Below are positions 4,009 through 20,010 of a stretch of DNA of 22,364 nucleotides, piece by piece. The DNA is taken from the IMG/VR virus record IMGVR_UViG_3300027861_001552, positions 1 to 22,364 of that record, one strand, 5' to 3'. Positions within the stretch are counted from its first letter, which is position 1; each line of letters starts with the position of its first letter. Both the position numbers and the translations under genes were made by a program. Below the pieces are notes generated by a model. That model did not search any database and was not told the origin of the DNA. It saw only the letters and a list, made by a program, of their open reading frames with translations. The stretch comes from a virus.

Positions 4009-5040
4009 TTAAGCAATGTCGGCAATTTCACAATGGTATTGTGGAGGACCGAAGTCAAATCCCATTTCCATGTAAACTGCTTTACCCATTCTTGCATTGT
4101 CGGCTTGGTCTAAGTCTCTTATGAAGACTGTTCCCTTGCCCGGAATGTTCAAGAAGATAGGTGCAACATATGCCATATCTACAATAAATGCTTTGTTAGC
4201 AGGTAAGTAGTCAGACAAAGCCAATCCCATAGCTCCGAATGGAGTTACGATAGTGTCAATGTCAACACCTCCGACATTTCTGTCTCTAGGTAGAATACCG
4301 CCTGTTAAAGCACCTGATACTGTTGGGTTAACAAGTTCTTTGTTAAGGTCCAACAACATTGCAGGAGAAATAAATAATACTGGTTCTCTTAATGGAGCGC
4401 CTGCATCATATAGTTTCTTCATAGCACCTGCTACTGTGTCCCAATGTATTTTTTGGTCTGCACCGGTACCATCGCCTGAAGCATCGTTAAAATAAACGTT
4501 ACCTCCAGTAAGGTTACAATGAGCATCTAAGCCCCTCATTTGCCTACTAGCTGCTGTTCCGTCTGCAAAGGTACCATTAAATGCTTGGAACTCTGCTTTT
4601 TTTGCGACTAACTCTAGAACTAACTGAAGTTGTTCAGCCATTTCATCATTAACAGGGTTAGTACCCTCTAATGCGAGTTTGTCAATACTGTTCTTATAGT
4701 TCGCTGCCAAGTCAAACGGCACAATCTCTCCATAAGCTGCTTGAGCAGTAAAGGTTAACTGTACTGCTTCATGAAATATCTCAAGTACACCTTGGATAGC
4801 AGAACGTGAGCGACCATTATAGTTAGGTGCGCCACCTTCTGTTCCCGGTGTTACGGAAGATACTGTAGCATTATCAATCGTTTGGAACTGGAAGAATGTG
4901 CTATTGATAGCTTTTCCTCCGGTAAGTCCTCCGGATGCTGATAATAATGGAGTTCTATGTGGTGTGACTTTGAACAACTCGCCTGTAAAGTTGTTAATCT
5001 CACTTGCTGAGATTGGATTAGGGCTACTTATAACGCCCAT
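4009..5040 (-). CDS. Major capsid protein (HK97-fold, SU10/DUF5309-like), 343 aa
   Basis: The 343-aa product matches the expected size and position of a major capsid protein, right after a scaffold. The N-terminus contains NNFTGELFKVTPHRTPLLSA, followed by a glycine-rich stretch and FFQFQTIDNATVSSVTPGTEGG. This is the pattern I associate with the DUF5309/SU10-type capsid family. The middle holds long helices (about 120-155, EMAEQLQLVLELVAKKAEFQAF) that fit the HK97 spine helix region. The C-terminal part (GVDIDTIVTPFGAMGLALSDYLP, then KAFIVDMAYVAPIFL) resembles the A-domain strands. It has the strongest ribosome binding site in the late operon, AGGAGG about 6 bp before the ATG, as expected for the most abundant virion protein. 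It carries two cysteines (in AHCNLTGG and YHCEIADIA). Confidence is high for capsid, moderate for the family name. Confidence 0.85.
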   Translation of the reverse strand: MGVISSPNPISASEINNFTGELFKVTPHRTPLLSASGGLTGGKAINSTFFQFQTIDNATVSSVTPGTEGGAPNYNGRSRSAIQGVLEIFHEAVQLTFTAQAAYGEIVPFDLAANYKNSIDKLALEGTNPVNDEMAEQLQLVLELVAKKAEFQAFNGTFADGTAASRQMRGLDAHCNLTGGNVYFNDASGDGTGADQKIHWDTVAGAMKKLYDAGAPLREPVLFISPAMLLDLNKELVNPTVSGALTGGILPRDRNVGGVDIDTIVTPFGAMGLALSDYLPANKAFIVDMAYVAPIFLNIPGKGTVFIRDLDQADNARMGKAVYMEMGFDFGPPQYHCEIADIA

Positions 5041-5080: not shown

Positions 5081-5566
5081 TTATAGATTCTTTTGAGCTT
5101 CCATTATGTTGAGTTTGGCTCTAATACTGTCTTTAGTATTACCGCTTTCCGCAACCTTTTGTAAAACTTCTAAAGCATCTTTGGGTACAACTGATTGTGA
5201 ACTACTTTCAAGTGCTTCTACTCTAGCGCGTGCATCACTTTGAATTACAGCTTCCTGAACTGGTTGTGGTGCCTGTCCTGAAACACCTGTTGGTTCATAG
5301 CCATACTCTTGCTTTGCAAAATCTAAAAGAGAGTCTTGATTTACTTCTCCTTTATACACTTGCTTTAATGCTTTACCAAACCCTGCGTTAGGGTCTAAGC
5401 CAATTCCTGTTACAGCAGTTTCTAATTTCTCCTGTTCATACATTGCTAACTTAGCTTTTAAATCTGCATTCTCGTCTTCTTGCGATTTAATTTTCTGACG
5501 CATTTGTTTAGCACCGGAAGATTCATTAATAGTTTCTTCGCCTGCATCTGTATAGTCATCTGTCAT
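5081..5566 (-). CDS. Capsid scaffolding protein, 161 aa
   Basis: This is an acidic protein of 161 aa immediately upstream of the capsid gene. Residues about 18-48 (AKQMRQKIKSQEDENADLKAKLAMYEQEKL) form a clear heptad-type coiled coil. The flanking parts are low in hydrophobics, and the C-terminus is basic and helical (SIRAKLNIMEAQKNL), as in many phage scaffolds whose C-terminal helix binds the capsid. The start is set at the ATG at 5566 and not the in-frame GTG 15 bases further upstream, because the sequence AGGAGG lies just before this ATG and would be inside the gene if the GTG were used. It follows the structured non-coding element at 5597-5749 and precedes the capsid gene by 40 bp. It should be needed transiently during procapsid assembly. 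Confidence 0.8.
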   Translation of the reverse strand: MTDDYTDAGEETINESSGAKQMRQKIKSQEDENADLKAKLAMYEQEKLETAVTGIGLDPNAGFGKALKQVYKGEVNQDSLLDFAKQEYGYEPTGVSGQAPQPVQEAVIQSDARARVEALESSSQSVVPKDALEVLQKVAESGNTKDSIRAKLNIMEAQKNL

Positions 5567-5596
5567 TTCGTACCTCCTCACAGTATTACCCTTGCA

Positions 5597-5749
5597 GTTA
5601 GACCCTGTGGATGTCTAACGTGGGACTACAGACCACACTTGACTTTAGTTACTGTAGCTCTAGCTAAAGTCCTTTACTCTACGAATTTAAGTACAAGATT
5701 TTGACGTAGGACCAAAATCTGATTGCAGGTCTTTAAGCGGACCACGCAA
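5597..5749 (-). ncRNA. Array of five consecutive stem-loops upstream of the scaffold gene (structured leader or small RNA)
   Basis: Almost the whole stretch can pair locally. In minus-strand order: 5749-5723, arms TTGC..GGTC / GACC..GCAA with an 8-base loop; 5720-5696, arms AGATTTTG / CAAAATCT with a 9-base loop; 5671-5641, arms GACTTTAG / CTAAAGTC with a 15-base loop; 5636-5620, arms GTGG / CCAC with a 9-base loop; 5619-5597, arms GTTAGAC / GTCTAAC with a 9-base loop. Two loops are complementary: CTACAG in the third and CTGTAG in the fourth. CTACG in the second loop can pair with CGTAG just downstream. No open reading frame was found here. A TATAAT box lies just upstream. I do not recognise a known RNA family. 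It may control scaffold and capsid translation, be a processing site, or be a free small RNA. Confidence 0.45.
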
Positions 5750-5762
5750 CGCTATACATATT

Positions 5763-5790
5763 ATTATACACTAATCTTCTAAAAGTCCAA
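5763..5790 (-). promoter_or_regulatory. Putative promoter for the scaffold-capsid genes and structured leader
   Basis: On the minus strand a perfect TATAAT (5768-5763) is preceded after 16 bp by TTGGAC (5790-5785), which matches only three bases of the -35 consensus. It lies across the 3' end of the upstream 324-aa gene. A start about 7 bases downstream (near 5756) would place the first stem-loop of the leader at the very 5' end of the transcript. The -10 match is visible; activity is inferred. Confidence 0.4.
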
Positions 5791-6745
5791 CTACTTCGCC
5801 TGTTTGTGTAGATGCTGCGCCTAGTTGTGTACCACCTGCAGATTGTATTTCAGCTTGAATACGTTGTAATCTTTGTTGTGATGTAACGTCACCTAATGCT
5901 GCTTCTTCTAGTGTTTCTAATTCTACTTCTCTACCTACTGTAGATGCAGCTTGCATAAAGCCAGTTGCTTGTTCATATACCTGTGCTGCTTGTTGTGTAG
6001 TTAATCCTGCTTTTCTAAGTTCTTCAAATCTAGCAAATGATTGTGTAAACCCTCTAATACTTGCTTGTGCTTGTAATTGTAGAGTTTGTATGTCACCTTT
6101 AAGTACTTTATCTGATATGTCTGGGTCAAGTAATGCACCAAATATAGTAGGTTGGTCTAATTCAATTCCAAATCGGTCTCTATATAAACGTTCTACTTCT
6201 GGTATTTGGTCTACCACTTGATTGTATACAAGGTCAACTCTTTGTTGAAACTCTGCTGCAGATACTTCTCCACTTATTAGTTCATTAAATTTATTTTCAA
6301 ATTCTGTCATATCTGTTATGTCTACTTCTCTTAATGTTTCTGCGTAACTAGCTTTAGTAGATAACATTTCAGCTTCAGACATAATTAAACTACCATCATC
6401 TCTTTGTAAGAAACCAAACTCTTTTTTCCATGAAGGTTTAGTTCTAACTTCAGCTATAGCTAATGTTGTATCATCATATTTAATCCAAGCATTTGCATAG
6501 TCTTTTAATACAGCTTCAGGAAAAAAACTAAATAGACTTCTTGCAACTGCCATAGCTGCGTCTGTATTTGGAGCAGGTTGACTAGTTCCTGCATCACTAG
6601 GAGCAGTTGTACTCCATCCATCAGCAAGTTTTCTGTTTAATTCAGAAGCACTTTCACCTTCACGTCTTCCCTCTTGTGCAGTTTGTACTTGACCATTTTT
6701 ATAAATAGTTACTTGATTGTTTGTACCTTCTACTATAGCTGCCAT
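5771..6745 (-). CDS. Putative internal virion protein, 324 aa
   Basis: No family is recognised with certainty. The 324-aa product is mostly helical. It has a Ser/Ala/Pro-rich linker around residues 45-65 and a short hydrophobic stretch MAVARSLFSFFPEAVLKDYA (about 65-84). The rest is long amphipathic helices rich in Glu and Gln (for example 215-300). The segment VYNQVVDQIPEVERLY (173-188) echoes YYNSVVDQV in the neighbouring 405-aa protein. The C-terminus is Gln/Gly/Thr rich and probably flexible. There is no cysteine. It starts one base inside the stop of the upstream gene, and its 3' end carries the promoter for the scaffold transcript. It is one of five consecutive large proteins between portal and scaffold. 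A virion component, possibly packaged with or ejected with the DNA, is the best inference. Confidence 0.5.
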   Translation of the reverse strand: MAAIVEGTNNQVTIYKNGQVQTAQEGRREGESASELNRKLADGWSTTAPSDAGTSQPAPNTDAAMAVARSLFSFFPEAVLKDYANAWIKYDDTTLAIAEVRTKPSWKKEFGFLQRDDGSLIMSEAEMLSTKASYAETLREVDITDMTEFENKFNELISGEVSAAEFQQRVDLVYNQVVDQIPEVERLYRDRFGIELDQPTIFGALLDPDISDKVLKGDIQTLQLQAQASIRGFTQSFARFEELRKAGLTTQQAAQVYEQATGFMQAASTVGREVELETLEEAALGDVTSQQRLQRIQAEIQSAGGTQLGAASTQTGEVVGLLED

Positions 6746-9347: not shown

Positions 9348-10480
9348 TATATCTGTCCTAACATAGCTGCTATTAATGATGACTGTTGTCTTCTAGCTGC
9401 ATTACCCTGTTCTATTGCGCTAGCTTCAGCACTCAAATCTTCTTGTATTTCTGATTGTATAACAGCTTCGGGGTCTGTAATTTGAAATATATCTGTTTTA
9501 AGTTGTTCTTCTTGTCCAGTAACCATTCTGCCTTCAAATGGTTTAGTAACACTTACAGTTTCAAATATGTTATTAGTCCTTATAGCTTTCTCTAATGCTT
9601 GTAGTTCTTTAAATCTTGGAGAATAAAGTTCTGCAAGTCTAGTGCTGTATCTTGCTTTTTCTGCAGCAGTAGCATCTCTAGGTACAATACTTCCAAACAA
9701 TTCATCAATAGTTTCTTCCATTTCTAAATCACTAGGTACATCGTATTGTGATGCAAGTACTTGTACAGCTTGTTCGTCTGCTAGTTTTTCCTGCATTTCT
9801 TTTTGTGATTTAACACTTTGAGATACACCTTCTATAGCTAAGTCTAATACAGCCATACTAAACGCTACATTATCAGGGTCTCCTTCTAAGAAACCATATG
9901 TAGAACCATGTTGTTCAATAAGTTTTTGACCATCTTCACTATCTTGTTGTATAAATATAGTATTGTCTGCATACTCCATGACTAAAGATAAAACAGCTTG
10001 TGTTTTTTCTCCAAACACTTCATCTTCATCATCAAAGTAATCTGCTTCTACTACTCCGTTTTTTATAAAACTATCTTGTAATTCTGCTAATAATTCTGGT
10101 TGTTGACTTATATTAAATAAAGCAGTAAAACCATTAGCAAAATTACTAGGTATTGTTTGAAGTACAAATTTACCTTCATCGTTTTTAGTATAAATTTTTC
10201 TTTGACCACCAAGAGCGCCTAATTGTTCCAAAACTTGTTGTTGACCTTCAGCTATTTTATCTTCAACTGTAGAAAAATCTTTACCACCTTCAGTAGCATC
10301 TACATCAGTAGGGTCTATACCATCAATTTTATCAAATATTTCTTGTAATTTTTCAGGGTCATTGGCATCTATAGCATTTACAATAACGCCAAACTGTGAA
10401 GGTATTATGACAGAATGTGTTTGTATAAATTCCTCTACAGAAACACCAAATTTTTGTTTAATTAATTCTTCAACTGTCAT
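9347..10480 (-). CDS. Putative internal virion protein, acidic helical, 377 aa
   Basis: This 377-aa acidic protein has no family that I can name. It starts with a short helical unit (TVEELIKQKFGVSVEEFIQTH). It has several Asp-rich loops (VEADYFDDEDEVFGEKTQAVLSLVMEYAD, about 144-172). A helical segment at about 250-285 reads LEMEETIDELFGSIVPRDATAAEKARYSTRLAEL, a pattern of 'F-x-x-x-x-x-R-x-A-T-x-x-E' similar to short helical repeats I have seen in other virion structural proteins. The last ~50 residues are Gln/Ser/Ala-rich. No membrane segment and no cysteine. It overlaps the end of the 1774-aa gene by 11 bp, which suggests the two are made in coupled amounts and may act together. Confidence 0.5.
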   Translation of the reverse strand: MTVEELIKQKFGVSVEEFIQTHSVIIPSQFGVIVNAIDANDPEKLQEIFDKIDGIDPTDVDATEGGKDFSTVEDKIAEGQQQVLEQLGALGGQRKIYTKNDEGKFVLQTIPSNFANGFTALFNISQQPELLAELQDSFIKNGVVEADYFDDEDEVFGEKTQAVLSLVMEYADNTIFIQQDSEDGQKLIEQHGSTYGFLEGDPDNVAFSMAVLDLAIEGVSQSVKSQKEMQEKLADEQAVQVLASQYDVPSDLEMEETIDELFGSIVPRDATAAEKARYSTRLAELYSPRFKELQALEKAIRTNNIFETVSVTKPFEGRMVTGQEEQLKTDIFQITDPEAVIQSEIQEDLSAEASAIEQGNAARRQQSSLIAAMLGQI

Positions 10481-13400
10481 TAAATATTCCTATTAGTTCA
10501 GTATCATCTCTAAACAATCTACTGTAAACACCTATCCATATATATTTAAAGTCTGGATATTCTTTAGTTATACTTCTAGCGATTTGGGCTACTCCCATTC
10601 TCAATGCTTTTGCTTCTGGTGCAGAACTCGTTAGCCACCAACTATCGCTAAAACCATAACTTTCCGAAATTTTGCCTGCTTCTTCCCATATAGGGTTAAA
10701 CTCAGCAAACGCTTTTCCAGACTCTAGTTTTAATACTAGCTCATTTGTAGTCCATTTTGCTTGCATTTCTTTTAAAACATCTTTTGCTTTAACTGGATTA
10801 ATAGAACCATAATCACTCATAAAACCCGGTAGTTGTTCAATTAGATAATTTCTATAAACTCTTAGCACTTGTATTTCATCTGCATTAGATAAATCCATAG
10901 CTTCTACTTGTTCTTTAAACCCTGTATATTGAAAATAACCAAGTGTATCATTTACTTGTCTTTGATATTCTTCTGGTGACAAAGTTACTCTATTTCCTTT
11001 ATTAAATGATTCATACATATTTGCATAGTTACGTTCGTCATAAGGACTATCTGGTAATACATACCATTTAGATAATCCTAAAGTTTCAAGTAATTCTTTA
11101 TTTTTATCTTGAAACTCTAATACTCTATCAGTAAAAGATTGTTTACCTACTTTAGATTGTGTTTTAGGAGCTGTTAACCAACCGTGTTCCATACCGTAAG
11201 TTCTTAAAAATTCATTAGCTCCTGCTATTTCGTCACTATCATTTTTATCAACTAGCTCTCTGTATTCATTAGCTAGTATTTGCGCACCCCAATATTGACC
11301 ATTTTTATCTTCAATGTAATATCTTGGTGTCCAACCTGTAGGTAAAAAGAATTGAGATAATCCTCTAAATAAATAAAGTTGTGATGCTTGTCGTTTAGAA
11401 TACGCCATAAAAGCATCGTCTAAACTCATACCTTTATTCAAATATTTATTTAGTTTACCTTGTTCTGCTAATGCTTTATCCCTACCAACTGCTTTACCGT
11501 ATCTATAAACATCAATAGTTGTAGATGCACGTAATTGTTGTCTATCATCACCGGCACCTACTGCAGTTAATATTTTTTCAAGCCATGCAGGAAATGGAAC
11601 TACATCTCCTAATGATGGTGGTCCAAATTCTCCATAAAGCAATCCTCTTACTTCTTTACCTATACCGTGTCTAGGTAATACTGTATCTGCAAGTACACCA
11701 AAATACGGTAATGGTCCCGGTACAAAACCTTGTCCTAATAAGTTAATACCTGATACAAAACCTTGTGGAGCTACTTTAACTCCACTATCTTTACCAAATA
11801 TTGCATTGCTTAAAAAATCCATACCCGGATACACAAACATTTCTGAACCTGAACCATTAGGGTCTGGTGCAAAAAATCCTTCTCCAGTATATTCGTTAGT
11901 ATTAGAACCTTTAGCTCCTGTACTAAACAACTGTGCTTGTCTAGCTCTATAAGGATTAGCTATAAGTATTTTGCTCCAAGTTTGTGCTAACTCAAACCAA
12001 ACTTCAGGGAAAGGAAATATGTTTCTAGTTATGTCTGATAATAAATGTTTTTTAGATGCGTCATACAATAATTCTTTAGTAGCAGATAATCCATAAGCCC
12101 TGCTTTGTACATTGGCTAAATCATAATCATCTATTTTTCCAGTAGCTACACCTTTTTGTCCACGCATTTCATCTATAACTTTTTTAGGTATTTTAGCTTC
12201 TTGAGCTTCTTTAATAAATTTTTTCTGTAGTTTAGGTGACATGTCCATAAAGTTATCGTTAACCCATTGCCATCTATATTGTTTCCAAACAACAGACCTA
12301 GAAAGATAAGCATTAGGTTTTGTCATAAGATGTTTAAAAGCTATATCAGTATATGTATCTAGTTTGTTTTCTAGTTTACCTAAAAAGCCAGTAACATTTG
12401 TTTGTGGTCTAGAACCTTTTACTAAACCAAAATTTACACCTTCATCTATGTAATAAGACAAACCTTCATAAATTTTATTAAGTTGTGTTTTTGTGTATTC
12501 TTTTGATACATCAGGTAAAAAATCAACAACGTTAGCTTTGCCTACTTTTTTACCTCTAGGTAGTTCTAATTTACCAGTAGCTATAGCATTTCTTAAATTT
12601 TGATTACCACCATACGTTCCAAACTTGTAACTGTATTTATCGCCTGCAATATAGTTAGTACCTTCAACTAATTGTTCACCAGTTTTAATTCTTATTCTTG
12701 CTTCTACAGAAGCTAGGTAAGCATCTGCATCACGTGCATTAGTGACAATACCTTCCATTCTATTACCACCTAATCTTGCTAATTCTTTTCTAAGTGGCAA
12801 TGCTTCTGCACTTCTAAACCATGCTTTAGATGCGTCATTAAATCCATTAGCAGCTAAATATCTAGCTATAGGGTCATTACGTAATTGTATTAATTCTGTA
12901 CCAATAGCTTTATCGTATCCTCTTTCACCCGGTCTAACTTCTATAAAATCTCTACCCATACTAGAACCTCTAGTAGGTCTACCTTTTAATGCACCTGCTG
13001 ACCAAACACTATTAGTAACTTCTTTGTATTCAAGAGTTTCTCTAATCTTTGCGCTGTCAATACCACCGGCATTTTCTCCTAAAAATTTCTTAGATAACCT
13101 ACCTGCTTGACCATGTGACCTAGCCCATATCATGTGACTAGCAGGATGTACAAACATATTGTCAAGTCCTGCAGCAGCCATTCTCATACTTTCTTCCATA
13201 AATACACGAACAAACCAAGCACCTCTAAGAAGTACTAATGGTTTAAATACATTTCTTGTCATGTAATCTAATGTCAAAGTATAAGCATCATCTGTTAAGT
13301 TTTTACTTGGAATAATTCCTGTAAAGTCTTCGCCACCTTTGAATGCTTTTAACATATTTTTACCAGTATGAGTAAGATTAGATAACAAACCACTTTCAAA

Positions 13401-15794
13401 ATCATTTCCGTATGTTGTAAATACTTTACCTAATGCTCTGTTAATTAATCTGTAATCTACTAATGGTGCCATTAATTCTGAAGATTCAGCTAATAAATGT
13501 AATGATGGTACAACCATATTTATTTCTTCACCGTTTGGTCCACGTTGAACAATAGTTTCCATTACATCACCAACAAATGGCATGTTGTCTCCAGTTAAAC
13601 TATCAACAAAATATTTTCTAATGTCTGCGTTACTTTCAAATATTTTTTTAGCAATTCTTTGTGTTGCAAAATTTTCACCAGTTTGTTGCATAATAAATTC
13701 ATCTCTTAATATTTGTTGATATGCAAAGTTTTGTATTGCTTCAAAGTTACCTTCTGGTATAGCTATTAACTCATCAACTATAGGTTTCATTGCATCATAA
13801 CTATATCCTGTAACTTGCATATGTGATACAAGATTGCGTACAGCACTATCTCTATTAGTAAATGACAATCCTTCATCGGGAGTAACACTTAATATTTTGT
13901 TTAAATAAGGTTTGTAACCTGAACGGATATTTGCACTAAAGCCCATAAGTTCACTAAACGCATCAGGACTTTTAGCTTGTCTACCATATAAATTACGTCC
14001 TATAACATTAGCTGTTTTTTTACCTGCACTCACAATTCCAGAGCTAGCACTTAAAAAAGCAGCGTCTTCTTTTCCTATAGCACTTAAACCTTTACCTATT
14101 GTTTGTTTAATAGGATTTGTACTATCTAATAATTCTTTACCTTTTAATGCTGATGTTCTTAATACTGCATTGGTTAATCCTGATTGTTTACCCGGTAATT
14201 GATTAATTACACCTGTATCAAATAAATTATCTAATATTTGTCTTACTTCTAAATAATCTGTTGCATCAGCTATTTGTTTATTTATTGTGTAATCTAAATT
14301 ATGAAGACCCGGAGTAGTCATTAATTTAGCAACATTATTTTCTTCTGTTAAAGCTTTAGTTATTTTTCTACCAAATGGGGAGTTCATCAAATCTTGTGTT
14401 GTATTTCTAAATAAAGATTTTCTAGTACCACTTATAACACCTGCTTGTTTATAAAGTTTTCTACCTGCAGCGTATTCTCTACCTTCGTCACCTTTAAACT
14501 TTCTAATAAGTTGACCATTTTTACCACTTATTAATGGTTTTTTATTTGAAAACGGGTCAACGTAATCTTCTAACTCATTAATATTTTTATTAAAAGTATT
14601 TAAATAATTATCTACTTTTGCAGCTTTTTGTGAATCAAGTAATTTATCTACAGTAATAGGAGCTTGTTTTAATTTATTTATAGTAGATATTCCTTTAGAC
14701 AAAGGTATGTCTGCAAGTAATCTAATTCCTCCGTCAATAATTCCTGACAAGGTATTTGCTGCTGTTGTTCCACTTGGAGTTACATTATATGCAACTTGTC
14801 TTCCCGGTGAATACGGTTGTAATACTCCAGTATCTAATCCTTGTTTTTGTCTCCACCAATTAGAAATACTAAACATATCGTTAATGTTATTACCCGGTGC
14901 ATAGTTAGATTTTCTACCCTCAAAAAATTGTATTCTATTAGGGCTAGATAAACTTGTGTATTCTTGCATGCCTAATGCTTCATTAGCTTTTATAGGTGTA
15001 CCTACATTGTCATAATATAATTTTCTAGCTTCTGTTTCACTTAGACCCATATCAAGTAATCGTTGATAACGTATGTCATCTTCAGCTAATAAACTTTCAA
15101 ATATAAATTTTCTATCTCTATCAAAGTTAACTGGGTTGCCATTCCATGCTTCTCTAAATGCAGCACTAAATGCAGTTTCTCCTGCAAGTTTGTTAGCTTC
15201 TCCCCACATTTTTGTATATTCTTTAAGTTCACCCCAAGTACCTTTATCTTTACCAATATCAGGTACTTGTGTATTACTTACATACATAGCTAAATTTTCT
15301 TGTGCTTCTGTTGGTAACATACCACTTTCAAGCATGCTGTCGTATGCGTGTAAATCAGCAACGTATTTAAGTTGACGATTTATTTTAATTACTTTTTCGC
15401 CCATACTCTCAAAACCAAGTAATGCCCATACACCTAACTGTGCATCTCCTTTAAGTGCTTTTGCTAAGTTTAATGTCATGTCTTGATGTTCTGGCATTAA
15501 AGGATTGCCTTGTCCATCTGTAGAAGCTAACTCCCATTGTTTAGCTGCTTGTTCAGATTGTGATATAGAATATCTATCCACTACTTCTTCTACTGCAGCT
15601 GAATTAGGGTCTGCTCCTACTTGTGTAAAACCAATTAATAAACTTTGTGGTGCGTTAGGATACTTTTGTGTAAACGCTATTAACGTTGGTGGGTCAACAT
15701 CGTTAAGATTTTCTTTTAAGTTTTTAAACTTTTTATTTCTAGCAACGTTACTAGCTACTTGTGATTGTTCAAATATTGGGTCAGGGAAGAACAC
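10470..15794 (-). CDS. Giant virion protein (putative internal/ejected protein), 1774 aa
   Basis: At 1774 aa this is by far the largest gene. It starts with GTG at 15794-15792, overlapping the preceding stop as TAGTG; the next in-frame Met is near residue 98, so the GTG start is favoured. The sequence is largely helical with scattered Trp/Tyr/Phe patches, notably TRNVFKPLVLLRGAWFVRVFMEESMRMAAAGL in the middle and ITRNIFPFPEVWFELAQTWSKILIANPYRARQAQ near two-thirds. A Pro/Gly/Phe-rich segment follows (QGFVPGPLPYFGVLADTVLPRHG). No polymerase, lysozyme, peptidase or MuF-type motif is evident. It contains no cysteine at all. I have the impression of similar large proteins in short-tailed marine and actinobacterial phages, annotated as structural or internal virion proteins. 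Ejection with the DNA is a plausible but unproven role. Confidence 0.6.
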   Translation of the reverse strand: MFFPDPIFEQSQVASNVARNKKFKNLKENLNDVDPPTLIAFTQKYPNAPQSLLIGFTQVGADPNSAAVEEVVDRYSISQSEQAAKQWELASTDGQGNPLMPEHQDMTLNLAKALKGDAQLGVWALLGFESMGEKVIKINRQLKYVADLHAYDSMLESGMLPTEAQENLAMYVSNTQVPDIGKDKGTWGELKEYTKMWGEANKLAGETAFSAAFREAWNGNPVNFDRDRKFIFESLLAEDDIRYQRLLDMGLSETEARKLYYDNVGTPIKANEALGMQEYTSLSSPNRIQFFEGRKSNYAPGNNINDMFSISNWWRQKQGLDTGVLQPYSPGRQVAYNVTPSGTTAANTLSGIIDGGIRLLADIPLSKGISTINKLKQAPITVDKLLDSQKAAKVDNYLNTFNKNINELEDYVDPFSNKKPLISGKNGQLIRKFKGDEGREYAAGRKLYKQAGVISGTRKSLFRNTTQDLMNSPFGRKITKALTEENNVAKLMTTPGLHNLDYTINKQIADATDYLEVRQILDNLFDTGVINQLPGKQSGLTNAVLRTSALKGKELLDSTNPIKQTIGKGLSAIGKEDAAFLSASSGIVSAGKKTANVIGRNLYGRQAKSPDAFSELMGFSANIRSGYKPYLNKILSVTPDEGLSFTNRDSAVRNLVSHMQVTGYSYDAMKPIVDELIAIPEGNFEAIQNFAYQQILRDEFIMQQTGENFATQRIAKKIFESNADIRKYFVDSLTGDNMPFVGDVMETIVQRGPNGEEINMVVPSLHLLAESSELMAPLVDYRLINRALGKVFTTYGNDFESGLLSNLTHTGKNMLKAFKGGEDFTGIIPSKNLTDDAYTLTLDYMTRNVFKPLVLLRGAWFVRVFMEESMRMAAAGLDNMFVHPASHMIWARSHGQAGRLSKKFLGENAGGIDSAKIRETLEYKEVTNSVWSAGALKGRPTRGSSMGRDFIEVRPGERGYDKAIGTELIQLRNDPIARYLAANGFNDASKAWFRSAEALPLRKELARLGGNRMEGIVTNARDADAYLASVEARIRIKTGEQLVEGTNYIAGDKYSYKFGTYGGNQNLRNAIATGKLELPRGKKVGKANVVDFLPDVSKEYTKTQLNKIYEGLSYYIDEGVNFGLVKGSRPQTNVTGFLGKLENKLDTYTDIAFKHLMTKPNAYLSRSVVWKQYRWQWVNDNFMDMSPKLQKKFIKEAQEAKIPKKVIDEMRGQKGVATGKIDDYDLANVQSRAYGLSATKELLYDASKKHLLSDITRNIFPFPEVWFELAQTWSKILIANPYRARQAQLFSTGAKGSNTNEYTGEGFFAPDPNGSGSEMFVYPGMDFLSNAIFGKDSGVKVAPQGFVSGINLLGQGFVPGPLPYFGVLADTVLPRHGIGKEVRGLLYGEFGPPSLGDVVPFPAWLEKILTAVGAGDDRQQLRASTTIDVYRYGKAVGRDKALAEQGKLNKYLNKGMSLDDAFMAYSKRQASQLYLFRGLSQFFLPTGWTPRYYIEDKNGQYWGAQILANEYRELVDKNDSDEIAGANEFLRTYGMEHGWLTAPKTQSKVGKQSFTDRVLEFQDKNKELLETLGLSKWYVLPDSPYDERNYANMYESFNKGNRVTLSPEEYQRQVNDTLGYFQYTGFKEQVEAMDLSNADEIQVLRVYRNYLIEQLPGFMSDYGSINPVKAKDVLKEMQAKWTTNELVLKLESGKAFAEFNPIWEEAGKISESYGFSDSWWLTSSAPEAKALRMGVAQIARSITKEYPDFKYIWIGVYSRLFRDDTELIGIFNDS

Positions 15795-16213: not shown

Positions 16214-16352
16214 GTTCCTCCATTATTACAACATAAACACCCGGATAGGGGTTTAGTATTTCGTATGCTTGTTCAAAAGATACTACTTGAGTATCTCCGT
16301 ATTCTTCATTTACGATACTCCAAAACTCTGCTTCAACAAATTCTTGGTTCAT
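16194..16352 (-). CDS. Small conserved-position late gene, 52 aa, function unknown
   Basis: This 52-aa reading frame is short but convincing. Its ATG (16352-16350) overlaps the portal stop codon as TAATG, the coupling used throughout the operon. Its 3' end overlaps the start of the 139-aa gene and carries that gene's GGAGG ribosome binding site, so without it there would be an odd 138-bp gap between portal and next gene. The product starts MNQEFVEAEFWSIVNEEYG, continues TQVVSFEQAYEILNPYPGVYVV and ends IMEEHGEEKR. It looks like a compact acidic alpha/beta fold. I do not recognise a family. A role in portal or head assembly would fit the position but is inference. Confidence 0.7.
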   Translation of the reverse strand: MNQEFVEAEFWSIVNEEYGDTQVVSFEQAYEILNPYPGVYVVIMEEHGEEKR

Positions 16353-18127
16353 TATGCTAATCCAAAAGCAGCAGCCATATCTGGCGGTGGTCCCTGTGGA
16401 GCTTGCATCATTTGTTGTTGTTGTATTAATGCCATTTGCTCTGGAGACATCTGTGGTTCTTCTGGAGTATAAAATTGTTTTAGTATTTCTGTCATAGCGT
16501 TTGGATTTTCATATATAGCTATAACTGCCATTGTGGCTTGTGGGTCTCCTTCTGCTGACCTAGCAAGAACACTATCAAATAAAACATTTTCAGCTTTATT
16601 CTTACGTATACGTTCTTGTACTTTGCCTACATTCTCAAGACCATCAATATTATCTTGTAAAGTTTCTGTATCAATAATACCTGCTTGTACTAATTGCAAA
16701 CCTGTAACTATTTTTTGTGGCTCATCAAATCCTGCCATAACACCGTAGATACGTCTTGTTCTATGGTCTCCACCTATATCACTAAGTGGTTTATAGTTTT
16801 CTGAAAAAGATGTTCCGTTAAAATAACCTGCCATAGGTTTACTTTGTGTACCTGTTTCTACAGCAAGTACTTCATCTAGTTCTAATCTTTTAGAATCCAT
16901 TTCTGATATACCGACTTTTATAATCTCTCTATATTCATTAATCATTAATGACATAGATGAATTAAGTTCTGCAAGACCTGCACCAGTAGTTACACTAGAA
17001 GGAGACTGTGCATCATCAGTTACTGGATAACCACCAACTAATCTAAGCTGTCTTTCTAATCTATCTACTTGTTGAAATAATTGATAAGGTATGTTATTTG
17101 CAGGTTTAGATACTTGTGTACCCGGAGCTAAATAGTTAACAGCAAATCTACCTTTACGATATTGTCCACTCTCTAACTCACCAGAAATATTTGTTTCTGT
17201 AAATACACTATCTTCCATTGCAATAGCAGACATAATATTTATCTTTGCCATCATGGACATTAAACCTATTGTGTGGTCGTATTGACCTTTAAGTTCGTCA
17301 AAACTAAATCGTTTCATAAATACAAACGGTGTTGTACTTAGTGTGTTAGGTATATAATCAAAAAGTTGTCTTGTTTCTGGATATACAATGTATGTACCAG
17401 TTATGTCATAGTATTCAATTATACTTACACCTTGACCTGTATTATCTTCCCAATCACCATCTTGTGTTGAATCTGTATATCCAATAAGAGATGTACTTGT
17501 GTTAGGAGACCCTTTAGGTTTATTAGGTTTTAAAATAACATTTTTATATTCAGGATATATTTGTGCAAGTTTCCATCTAGGTACACTTCTTAATACTGCT
17601 AGTTCTTGTGGTTTTTGGTCTGGACCAAAGTTACCCGGATATGTGTCATAGGGGTCACGTAGTTCTGCAGTAGGATACAAGAAACCATTCTTATCTTGTT
17701 TGTGTGTAATAATCCATGCACAATAACCATAACCCGGTAACCATCTAGCAGCTTGTGCTAACTGTAAGTTAAGTCTTTGCTTCTCATCATAGGAAGCAAC
17801 TATTCTTTCTAGCTTATCAGCACGTTTTCTAGCACGGTCACTATCGTTATTGTTCATTAAATCTACACGTATGTTAGGTACACCAGATATTTTTTGTGCA
17901 AGTCTGTCAATACCAGACTGCAATAAGTTTGGTGCAGGAAGTAAATCTGAATCAGCAGTATCCATTTGATTACCTAATAATGCTTTAATACCATCAGCAC
18001 CACCATTAAGGATTGCTCTTATTCTATATTTATTAGTTTGTCTATTGCTAGAAGAACCACCTGCGACTAATTCTTGCGCAGCATCTATGATTTCTTCAGC
18101 AGATTTTTTATCTAAATTTATTGCCAT
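16352..18127 (-). CDS. Portal protein, 591 aa
   Basis: The protein of 591 aa lies directly after the terminase and has the size of SPP1 gp6-like portals. The N-terminal part (NKYRIRAILNGGADGIKALLG; LPAPNLLQSGIDRLAQKISGVPNIRVDL) and RWLPGYGYCAWIITHKQDKNGFLYPTAELRDPYDTYPG match the usual portal sequence of a clip/wing region followed by a Y-P/D-P-rich loop. Residues about 285-330 (MSMMAKINIMSAIAMEDSVF) and the long helical part around 380-430 fit the stem and crown. The C-terminus is Gln/Met/Pro-rich and disordered. It forms the ring through which DNA enters and leaves the head, and docks the terminase. The start overlaps the terminase stop by 10 bp. It has one cysteine (Cys136). Confidence 0.85.
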   Translation of the reverse strand: MAINLDKKSAEEIIDAAQELVAGGSSSNRQTNKYRIRAILNGGADGIKALLGNQMDTADSDLLPAPNLLQSGIDRLAQKISGVPNIRVDLMNNNDSDRARKRADKLERIVASYDEKQRLNLQLAQAARWLPGYGYCAWIITHKQDKNGFLYPTAELRDPYDTYPGNFGPDQKPQELAVLRSVPRWKLAQIYPEYKNVILKPNKPKGSPNTSTSLIGYTDSTQDGDWEDNTGQGVSIIEYYDITGTYIVYPETRQLFDYIPNTLSTTPFVFMKRFSFDELKGQYDHTIGLMSMMAKINIMSAIAMEDSVFTETNISGELESGQYRKGRFAVNYLAPGTQVSKPANNIPYQLFQQVDRLERQLRLVGGYPVTDDAQSPSSVTTGAGLAELNSSMSLMINEYREIIKVGISEMDSKRLELDEVLAVETGTQSKPMAGYFNGTSFSENYKPLSDIGGDHRTRRIYGVMAGFDEPQKIVTGLQLVQAGIIDTETLQDNIDGLENVGKVQERIRKNKAENVLFDSVLARSAEGDPQATMAVIAIYENPNAMTEILKQFYTPEEPQMSPEQMALIQQQQMMQAPQGPPPDMAAAFGLA

Positions 18128-20010
18128 GGTGCATCATTCATATCAGTAACATTATAACCAGTAAAACTTGGTTTGTATTCCATTCCAACTTCTGCTAAGT
18201 GTTCTTTCTGTACTCGTCTAAATACTTTCATTGGGAACCAACTAGACATAACAATATCAGTCTTATGTTTATTCCTACTAGAAACAGGTTTACCATCAAA
18301 GTATACTAACTGTCTTTTGTAACTATCTATTTTAGCTTGACTTTCGGCATTGCCATAGGGTAAATGTATTTTATTTGCCTCAAACAATTCTGACATAGCA
18401 CCTACACCATAAAGTGGGTCATGTTTGTTTTTTCCTGTTAAGTGTCCTTGTAATAGAATACCTGTACGTAATACAAACTCTTTGATGTTTTCGTCTTGAC
18501 GTATAGCAGTCTGAAAACCGTTTTCTTCAATAATCCAATGTGCTAAGTCATACTTGTGATACCAGTCAGAGATAACTTGTGCAGCTGCTCTAACACCACC
18601 ACCTTTTTGATTATCTATATCTATACAATATAATTCTGAGTTAAACGTATCTATACCCCAAAGAAATGCAGCTTGATATCCTGAACTAGAAGGGTCAAGA
18701 CCTGCAACAAGTTGTAATTGTTTAGGTATTTCGCCAACAACTAATTCTTGTCTTTTACAAGCGTCAATAGCATCAGGACTAAATATTTGTGTGCCTTCTA
18801 CATAAGACTGATTAAAGTACACCATTTCAAATATCTGTTTACCACCTGTAGTTTCTGCTGCACGTAATCGTGACATCAACCATTTATGTGTACGCTTACC
18901 TTCCCATAACATACAATCAGTATGTTCTTCATCACTAGCTTCAGGTAGTTGACAAGTCAAATCATGTGCTGTCTCTACTATGCTTTCAAATGCTTCGTTG
19001 TTAAGTAAGTGATGATACAAGTCATCAGGATGCTGTCGTGAACCAATTACAACTACAGCTGTGTGTTCCTCTTTACGACTAGAGAGTGTTGTAGTCCACC
19101 ATTGTCTAGTGTTTTCTCTAGCACCGGGTTGCATTGTAGTTTGATGGTCTTCAATGTCATCTGCAATTATTAGGTCACAGTCACGAGAAAGTATCTTTCC
19201 ACCCTTACCAACTGCAACCATTGTCGGTGATTTAATACCCGGAACTGTTCTTGTACCTACAGTAAACTGATTGCTAGCCCACATCTTACCTGACCTATTG
19301 TCTGGTTTAAATGATTTGCCGGGTTCACAGAAATCTTCTTGTAATTGTTCATTACTTTCTAGTTGGTCAAGTACAGCAGATACAGCGTTCTTAGCTATGT
19401 CCTCGTTACCACCTACCCACATAATCCTAGTGTTAGGGTTCTTACATATTTGATAGACGGCAAAGTGTATTAACAGTTCTGTCTTACCATGACGTGGCGG
19501 AGACAGTACTAACAGTTCGCCCCCCTCGTCTATAGACTTAAGTATCTTGTTTATCCAGTTCTCATGAAAGTTTGCAGTCTCATACTTCTCTCCTGTTTCT
19601 GTAGCAAAGTACTTGTTGCGAAACGTAGAAAAATTTTCTAATGCTTGTTCTGCCTCCTGTGGCACAGACCAACCTTCCGCATCTAATTTGTTCTGCAAAT
19701 CAATCTGGTAAGCAGCATTCATCTTAGAAACAGTAGCAATAGGGCAACCAAGGGCTTCGGCAGCTTTAGTGGCAGTTAGCTCACCATTCATGACTAAGTC
19801 AGCTAAACCTTTATCTATGTACTCGTTATAGTATTTGCCCTTCATAGGAGTAAGTGCAGAGTATTTACTGTTTATAGGTTTATCCTGCTTCTTATTATGT
19901 CTGTACTCCCTCATGTATTGCTTACGTTGACAAGGAGCAGAGCAATATTTTGATTTACCGGCTGTTAAACGTTTCCTACAATTAGTAGCGTGACATATCT
20001 TTTTAGACAT
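18118..20010 (-). CDS. terL: Terminase large subunit with N-terminal zinc-finger and helix-turn-helix extension, 630 aa
   Basis: This is the ATP-driven DNA packaging motor and nuclease. Walker A is SPPRHGKT at 170-177, Walker B is LIIADDIED around 280-288, and a coupling motif IGSRQHPDDL lies at 322-331. The C-terminal RNase-H-like nuclease shows GLDPSSSG (Asp439), the CIDID strand (462-466), an acidic IIEENG (493-498) and HKTDIVMS (Asp585). Before the ATPase there is an unusual ~110-residue extension. It has four cysteines at 6, 11, 23 and 27 (C-x4-C-x11-C-x3-C), a basic stretch, and a helix-turn-helix-like segment (LADLVMNGELTATKAAEALGCPIATVSKM, 69-97). This may supply the DNA recognition usually given by the small subunit, which is not seen in the window. 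The start is at 20010, preceded by AGGAAT and by a good promoter. Confidence 0.9.
   Translation of the reverse strand: MSKKICHATNCRKRLTAGKSKYCSAPCQRKQYMREYRHNKKQDKPINSKYSALTPMKGKYYNEYIDKGLADLVMNGELTATKAAEALGCPIATVSKMNAAYQIDLQNKLDAEGWSVPQEAEQALENFSTFRNKYFATETGEKYETANFHENWINKILKSIDEGGELLVLSPPRHGKTELLIHFAVYQICKNPNTRIMWVGGNEDIAKNAVSAVLDQLESNEQLQEDFCEPGKSFKPDNRSGKMWASNQFTVGTRTVPGIKSPTMVAVGKGGKILSRDCDLIIADDIEDHQTTMQPGARENTRQWWTTTLSSRKEEHTAVVVIGSRQHPDDLYHHLLNNEAFESIVETAHDLTCQLPEASDEEHTDCMLWEGKRTHKWLMSRLRAAETTGGKQIFEMVYFNQSYVEGTQIFSPDAIDACKRQELVVGEIPKQLQLVAGLDPSSSGYQAAFLWGIDTFNSELYCIDIDNQKGGGVRAAAQVISDWYHKYDLAHWIIEENGFQTAIRQDENIKEFVLRTGILLQGHLTGKNKHDPLYGVGAMSELFEANKIHLPYGNAESQAKIDSYKRQLVYFDGKPVSSRNKHKTDIVMSSWFPMKVFRRVQKEHLAEVGMEYKPSFTGYNVTDMNDAPWQ

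Follow-up and report, generated by a model that had tools for sequence, protein, structure and literature searches.

A predicted structured leader RNA of tandem pseudoknots precedes the scaffold and capsid genes of uncultured marine phages

The window, that is, the whole 22,364-nt stretch of viral DNA under analysis, carries the late operon of a phage on its minus strand. The main features of this operon are as follows.

18118-20010, minus strand: terminase large subunit
16352-18127, minus strand: portal-like protein
5771-6745, minus strand: ORF upstream of the non-coding gap
5567-5770: non-coding gap, the largest of the late operon, between the preceding ORF and the scaffold ATG at 5566-5564
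5081-5566, minus strand: scaffold-like gene of 161 aa (start ATG 5564-5566; PHROG 7813, a family with no assigned function)
4009-5040, minus strand: major capsid protein of the SU10 type, 343 aa (PF17236, E 2.7e-44; PHROG 1328)

Further structural genes of the late operon lie between the portal-like gene and the ORF at 5771-6745. The operon also includes an ORF of 1774 aa (window 10470-15794), and its second largest gap, of 138 nt (window 16214-16351), separates the portal-like gene from the next ORF. The product of the 161-aa gene is a putative scaffold protein by virtue of its position directly before the capsid gene, and its relatives are likewise placed. A search for DNA similarity to annotated phages returned none.

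A preliminary description of this DNA had placed five stem-loops at 5597-5749, inside the large gap of the late operon. All five are present there, and they correspond to the P2, P3, P5, P7 and P8 hairpins of a leader RNA transcribed from the minus strand. The RNA itself had been drawn from the wrong strand: the genes are read from the minus strand, and the drawing has to be reverse-complemented to give the RNA. As for the image of a chain of independent hairpins, the hairpins exist, but P1, which interlocks with P2, had been missed together with the partners of the loops. These partners are 5679-5683 for the P3 loop, the P7 loop for the P5 loop, and 5579-5583 for the P8 loop. Comparison of folding energies with shuffled sequences, which had been suggested as a check, gave values modestly better than the controls and borderline. 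On the minus strand, nested folding reached a z of -1.52 for the whole gap (14 of 200 shuffles as good) and -2.06 for 5597-5749 (6 of 200), while the plus strand reached -1.69. Pseudoknots are invisible to nested folding, hence folding energy alone is weak evidence here, and it is the comparative evidence given below that places the stems beyond chance.

A search with the capsid protein recruited 62 contig stretches. In the relatives with readable upstream DNA, 157-357 nt separate the upstream gene from the scaffold ORF as called, and in B-type relatives a small ORF takes part of this gap. Two scans of 2.9 million viral contigs for the leader motif yielded 95 and 32 contigs (127 in all). In every contig of sufficient length the motif was located about 200 nt before a scaffold gene and about 700 nt before a capsid gene, the remaining matches being near contig ends. 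Leaders of greater divergence came from two additional scans with the capsid protein. Every one of the 121 distinct leaders obtained only by way of this protein has a hairpin with a loop that pairs downstream (combined score 26 or more), compared to 11 of 119 upstream controls that were similar in length. The leaders fall into at least four types with little sequence in common (A, which includes the window, B, C and D), along with sub-variants such as L013, L035 and L038. The small ORF of the B types, as seen in L017:2168-2341 and also in L024 and L026, encodes 57 aa (MFKWVRARNKKG...VLAWSVSAK) with one hydrophobic stretch. It ends just past P1, so that its 3' end is coding sequence, -10 box and first RNA stem together.

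The conserved leader spans window positions 5768-5573 on the operon (minus) strand. Its unit is made up of three H-type pseudoknots (P1/P2, P3/P4 and P8/P9) and a loop-loop interaction between the P5 and P7 kissing hairpins, the latter being a feature of the A types, including the window phage. The elements of the leader, all on the minus strand, are listed below in the order of the transcript.

5763-5768: TATAAT, the -10 box of a putative sigma-70-type promoter, 9 nt ahead of P1
5736-5753: P1, AGCG (5750-5753) with CGCU (5736-5739)
5723-5749: P2, GGUC (5740-5743) with GACC (5728-5731), interlocked with P1 as pseudoknot 1, and its outer extension UUGC (5746-5749) with GCAA (5723-5726)
5696-5720: P3 hairpin, AGAUUUUG (5713-5720) with CAAAAUCU (5696-5703)
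5679-5709: P4, forming pseudoknot 2, CUACG of the P3 loop (5705-5709) with CGUAG (5679-5683)
5641-5671: P5 hairpin, GACUUUAG (5664-5671) with CUAAAGUC (5641-5648), helices 5 and 6 of the A alignment
5626-5657: P6 kissing interaction, CUACAG of the P5 loop (5652-5657) with CUGUAG of the P7 loop (5626-5631)
5589-5624: short helix enclosing P8, CCC (5622-5624) with GGG (5589-5591)
5597-5619: P8 hairpin, GUUAGAC (5613-5619) with GUCUAAC (5597-5603)
5579-5609: P9, forming pseudoknot 3, CACAG of the P8 loop (5605-5609) with CUGUG (5579-5583), one base from the Shine-Dalgarno
5573-5577: Shine-Dalgarno GGAGG of the scaffold gene, invariant in A

Alignments of the four types support this architecture, with 92-95% pairing overall against 30-47% in slid controls; the structures were derived from the same sequences, which biases the percentage paired upward. 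The 43 sequences of type A have 91.6% of cells paired over 51 pairs (31-41% with partners slid), and double changes affect 27 pairs, with 123 double-change cells against 28 in shuffles. For the other types, pairing amounts to 93.4% in B (11 sequences; 30-44% slid; 14 pairs with double changes), 94.7% in C (19 sequences; 31-47% slid; double changes at 22 of 35 pairs) and 92.8% in D (20 sequences; 34-47% slid; 9 pairs with double changes). More weight goes to the double compensatory changes and to the controls made by sliding and shuffling. The preliminary description had proposed compensating changes in relatives as the support to look for, and these were found at many pairs in four leader types. 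A tree-aware test for covariation of the R-scape kind, applied to the A types alone, gave no significance (best values E ~0.3 for P8 and E ~0.6 for P4) because the independent substitutions are too few.

Individual helices changed sequence and kept their pairing. P1 occurs in the A types as AGCG:CGCU, GACG:CGUC and AGUG:CACU, and takes other forms in B, C and D. P2 covaries in B, and in C all four of its pairs do so; in A it was fixed by the search pattern, so that its invariance is partly imposed and is no evidence within this type. The outer extension of P2 reads UUGA:UCAA in L264 and L276, both recruited through the capsid protein. P3 displays double changes in A, B and C. P4 is 100% paired in the A types, with an A-U/G-C exchange, and appears across types as CUACG:CGUAG, CUGCG:CGCAG, CAACG:CGUUG, CAAGG:CCUUG and CUACU:AGUAG. 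The P5 hairpin is general among A types only in its outer five pairs, helices 5 and 6 being paired in 88% and 34% of cells, respectively. The kissing interaction P6 reads GCUACC:GGUAGC, GUUACCC:GGGUAAC or GUUAUCC:GGAUAAC in relatives, and an analogous pairing is found in B. The short helix enclosing P8 pairs in 100% of A cells and also occurs as CUC:GAG and ACC:GGU. P8 is also 100% paired in A, with double changes at seven of its seven pairs. The same full pairing holds for P9, in which three of five pairs were exchanged together (CUAUG:CAUAG). Over the leader types, P9 occurs as CACAG:CUGUG, CUAUG:CAUAG, CACAC:GUGUG, CCCAC:GUGGG, CUACC:GGUAG, CUAUC:GAUAG, CUAGC:GCUAG, CGAC:GUCG, CAAGC:GCUUG, CUGGC:GCCAG, CUAAU:AUUAG and CAUAC:GUAUG. 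One divergent leader, L358, lies within 250 nt before a scaffold ATG; inspected by eye, it has a P4 of CCUCG:CGAGG and a last pseudoknot that is followed by AG.

Searches with structural templates agree with the alignments. The template for pseudoknots 1 and 2, applied to 26 leaders, beat nearly all shuffles (0 to 3 of 40 as good), although it picked other helices in L038 and its choice of P2 in B and C was not always the covarying one. The template for pseudoknot 3 was present in 17 of 17 leaders and ahead of most shuffles in most of them, and taken alone was not significant in L038 (6 of 60 shuffles as good), L039 and L044. That these pairings arose by chance, or are palindromes acting at the level of DNA, is a negligible prospect. 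The nested folding energy is indeed only modestly ahead of shuffles, as such an origin would have it, but double compensatory changes occur at crossing pairs in four types and the pairing collapses on sliding. The same explanation also fails to account for an excess of G-U pairs on the minus strand. In the A-type alignment there are 72 G-U cells against 41 A-C cells, which favours an RNA from the minus strand and disfavours one from the plus strand.

The signals that flank the structure are also conserved. In the A and B alignments the -10 hexamer varies little or not at all, and most C sequences and every D sequence have it. Its distance to P1 is about 7-9 nt in all leader types, from which it follows that a transcript would begin at P1. 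Scanning yielded neither a good -35 box nor a terminator. At the other end, the last pseudoknot strand in all types adjoins the Shine-Dalgarno or lies shortly before it, and in the window 12 bases separate the end of P9 from the scaffold start codon. We estimated the exposure of the Shine-Dalgarno with the conserved nested stems imposed and the pseudoknot strands blocked, a calculation that cannot model the pseudoknots themselves. Its predicted unpaired probability rose from 0.51 to 0.70 in A, from 0.51 to 0.76 in B, from 0.28 to 0.44 in C and from 0.59 to 0.66 in D, a modest change in the same direction in four of four types.

Leader type goes with the scaffold gene and the upstream gene rather than with the capsid gene. 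L042 and L043 (type D) share 96-97% capsid identity with L044 (type C), whereas their scaffolds are 28-38% identical; near-identical capsids next to divergent scaffolds and leaders place a recombination point between the scaffold and capsid genes. Likewise, A1 types such as L004 and the B-type L017 are about 70% identical in the capsid and only 29% in the scaffold. In L035:2334-2514 and L038:2217-2537, the 5' domain is A-like, whereas the nearest scaffolds are those of C types, and the 3' domain of L035 is also C-like, which suggests an exchange inside the leader. The co-segregation of leader and scaffold fits an action in cis on the scaffold gene, without proving it: the upstream gene shows the same co-segregation, and linkage by itself could account for the match.

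Several matches point to the host of these phages. The nearest cultured relatives of the capsid are mostly actinobacterial phages, and the named matches of the portal, like the best matches of the terminase, are Streptomyces phages. A search of genome collections gave a single match, to RS345, a MAG of the Actinomycetota with a type A leader. Contigs C30 and C36 of RS345 hold two different capsid relatives in one small MAG, a hint at the host. The 42 searched genomes of the order of RS345 measure 0.6-1.1 Mb, and streamlined marine Actinomarinales have genomes of like size (PMC7771536). The host is thus probably a streamlined marine actinomycete in the broad sense of the phylum Actinomycetota, although the contigs may be misbinned.

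The leader apparently represents an undescribed RNA family, the function of which we infer. Rfam 15 gave no match to the window at gathering score, and none of its 4227 families matched ten relatives (A, B and C-like) even at E values up to 1. Our literature searches found no work on the leaders that precede scaffold or capsid genes in phages, and nothing usable on scaffold autoregulation in P22. Among cultured phages with SU10-type capsids, Bernal13, Nebkiss, BigBern1, prophi91-3 and EL753P1 have only about 40-70 nt before the scaffold gene. Longer gaps, of about 100 nt in Dulem virus 32 and of about 200 nt in Propionibacterium phage B22, are G+C-rich and by eye bear no resemblance to the leader. 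A ligand-sensing riboswitch or self-cleaving ribozyme would suit a compact fold with several pseudoknots, but the lack of a match in the Rfam search of ten relatives and the few unpaired bases common to the leader types make it highly improbable.

We consider it probable, at roughly 70%, that the element is a structured 5' leader of the scaffold-capsid mRNA that shields the 5' end of this message and sets the translation of the scaffold. The preliminary description had suggested a selected RNA and had named, next to an RNase processing site and a free small RNA, a leader controlling the translation of scaffold and capsid; this last is the best reading of the comparative data, in which each leader type analysed shows compensatory changes. 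It is supported by the fact that the element always precedes a scaffold gene, reaches the Shine-Dalgarno and is exchanged with the scaffold and not with the capsid. We propose that a sigma-70-type promoter within the late operon would start transcription at or just before P1, yielding extra scaffold-capsid mRNA. With tandem pseudoknots at its 5' terminus, the message would have hardly any loose end there, if any, and would be protected from decay that depends on this end. The last pseudoknot, packed against the Shine-Dalgarno, could set translation initiation by keeping the site open or, if stabilised by a protein, by acting as a repressing operator; the first suspect for such a protein would be the scaffold protein.

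The preliminary description had also raised the idea of a free small RNA, cut or terminated from this region, such as a packaging RNA. The packaging RNA of phi29 is a structured phage RNA that acts as a separate transcript on the packaging motor. It is similar in size to the leader, and both have loop-loop pairing, which together with a likely promoter of its own would be compatible with such a role. Yet the idea did not hold up well and is very unlikely: no terminator is predicted, though processing could also make a 3' end, the conserved structure is fused to the scaffold gene and reaches its Shine-Dalgarno, leader and capsid gene are not exchanged together, and no match was found to Rfam Phage_pRNA or any other family.

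Protection of the 5' end might instead be the whole function, with tandem pseudoknots that block RNase J or RppH/RNase E and give a longer-lived capsid mRNA without regulation. In all types P1 starts where transcription is expected to begin, mRNAs of bacteria with RNase J are stabilised by 5' roadblocks (PMC3997798), and a flaviviral xrRNA, a viral RNA based on a pseudoknot, can stop the bacterial RNase J1 (PMC5760640). The likeness to such exonuclease-resistant RNAs is limited to the presence of pseudoknots, as xrRNAs are 3' UTR elements with a three-way junction and a ring, whereas here H-type pseudoknots stand in tandem at the 5' end. Protection alone also leaves the constant position of pseudoknot 3 beside the Shine-Dalgarno unexplained, and we regard it as unlikely.

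We would assign a similarly low likelihood to a specific form of the leader model, a translational operator in which scaffold or capsid protein, when free and in excess, would bind to the last pseudoknot and repress its own translation. The adjacency of this pseudoknot to the Shine-Dalgarno in all types speaks for it, as do the tracking of leader type with the scaffold gene and the A-like 5' domains joined to C-like scaffolds in L035 and L038. There are also precedents, as T4 gp32 and ribosomal protein S15 repress their own translation on their leaders (PMC3014915, PMC8470358). On the other hand, a protein family search recognised no RNA-binding domain in the scaffold-like protein, and linkage could explain the co-segregation of leader and scaffold.

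These precedents, and the block of RNase J1 by knotted RNA, bear on parts of the proposed leader, and none is a shown homologue. The gene 32 leaders of T4, T2 and RB69 contain an H-type pseudoknot upstream of the ribosome site that takes part in autogenous translational control, and a 2010 review suggested that it might be the sole viral pseudoknot in translational autoregulation (PMC3014915). An H-type pseudoknot in a phage mRNA leader is thus common to both systems. The T4-type leader has a single one, 67 nt upstream of an SSB gene, and its ribosome site is covered by an A+U-rich UUAA(A) tract without structure; here there are three that covary, the last of them against the Shine-Dalgarno of a scaffold gene, and there is no homology. 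In the rpsO leader of mycobacteria and E. coli, a 5' UTR pseudoknot is essential for translational feedback (PMC8470358). Mycobacteria share a phylum with the inferred phage host, but rpsO is a cellular gene whose one pseudoknot is recognised by S15, while the leader described here always precedes a scaffold-like phage gene and has no Rfam match. Consecutive UTR pseudoknots are also found in the upstream pseudoknot domain of TMV, with a role in translation and replication (PMC4683447); it is a 3' UTR element of a plant RNA virus, unrelated to the phage leader.

Few cases of structured RNA control of phage structural genes are known. The leader is a three-pseudoknot RNA that retains its shape in many uncultured marine phages despite a nearly complete change of sequence. 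It offers a structure based on covariation, a marker sequence by which these phages can be recognised, and a model, open to testing, of how scaffold and capsid levels are set. A more ambitious idea, which we hold to be doubtful at present, is that the three-pseudoknot chain makes the capsid mRNA resistant to 5' decay and at the same time senses free scaffold protein, and would thus constitute a new class of regulatory RNA. If this is true, these phages would match the synthesis of their shell proteins to assembly by means of a decay-resistant, scaffold-sensing leader.
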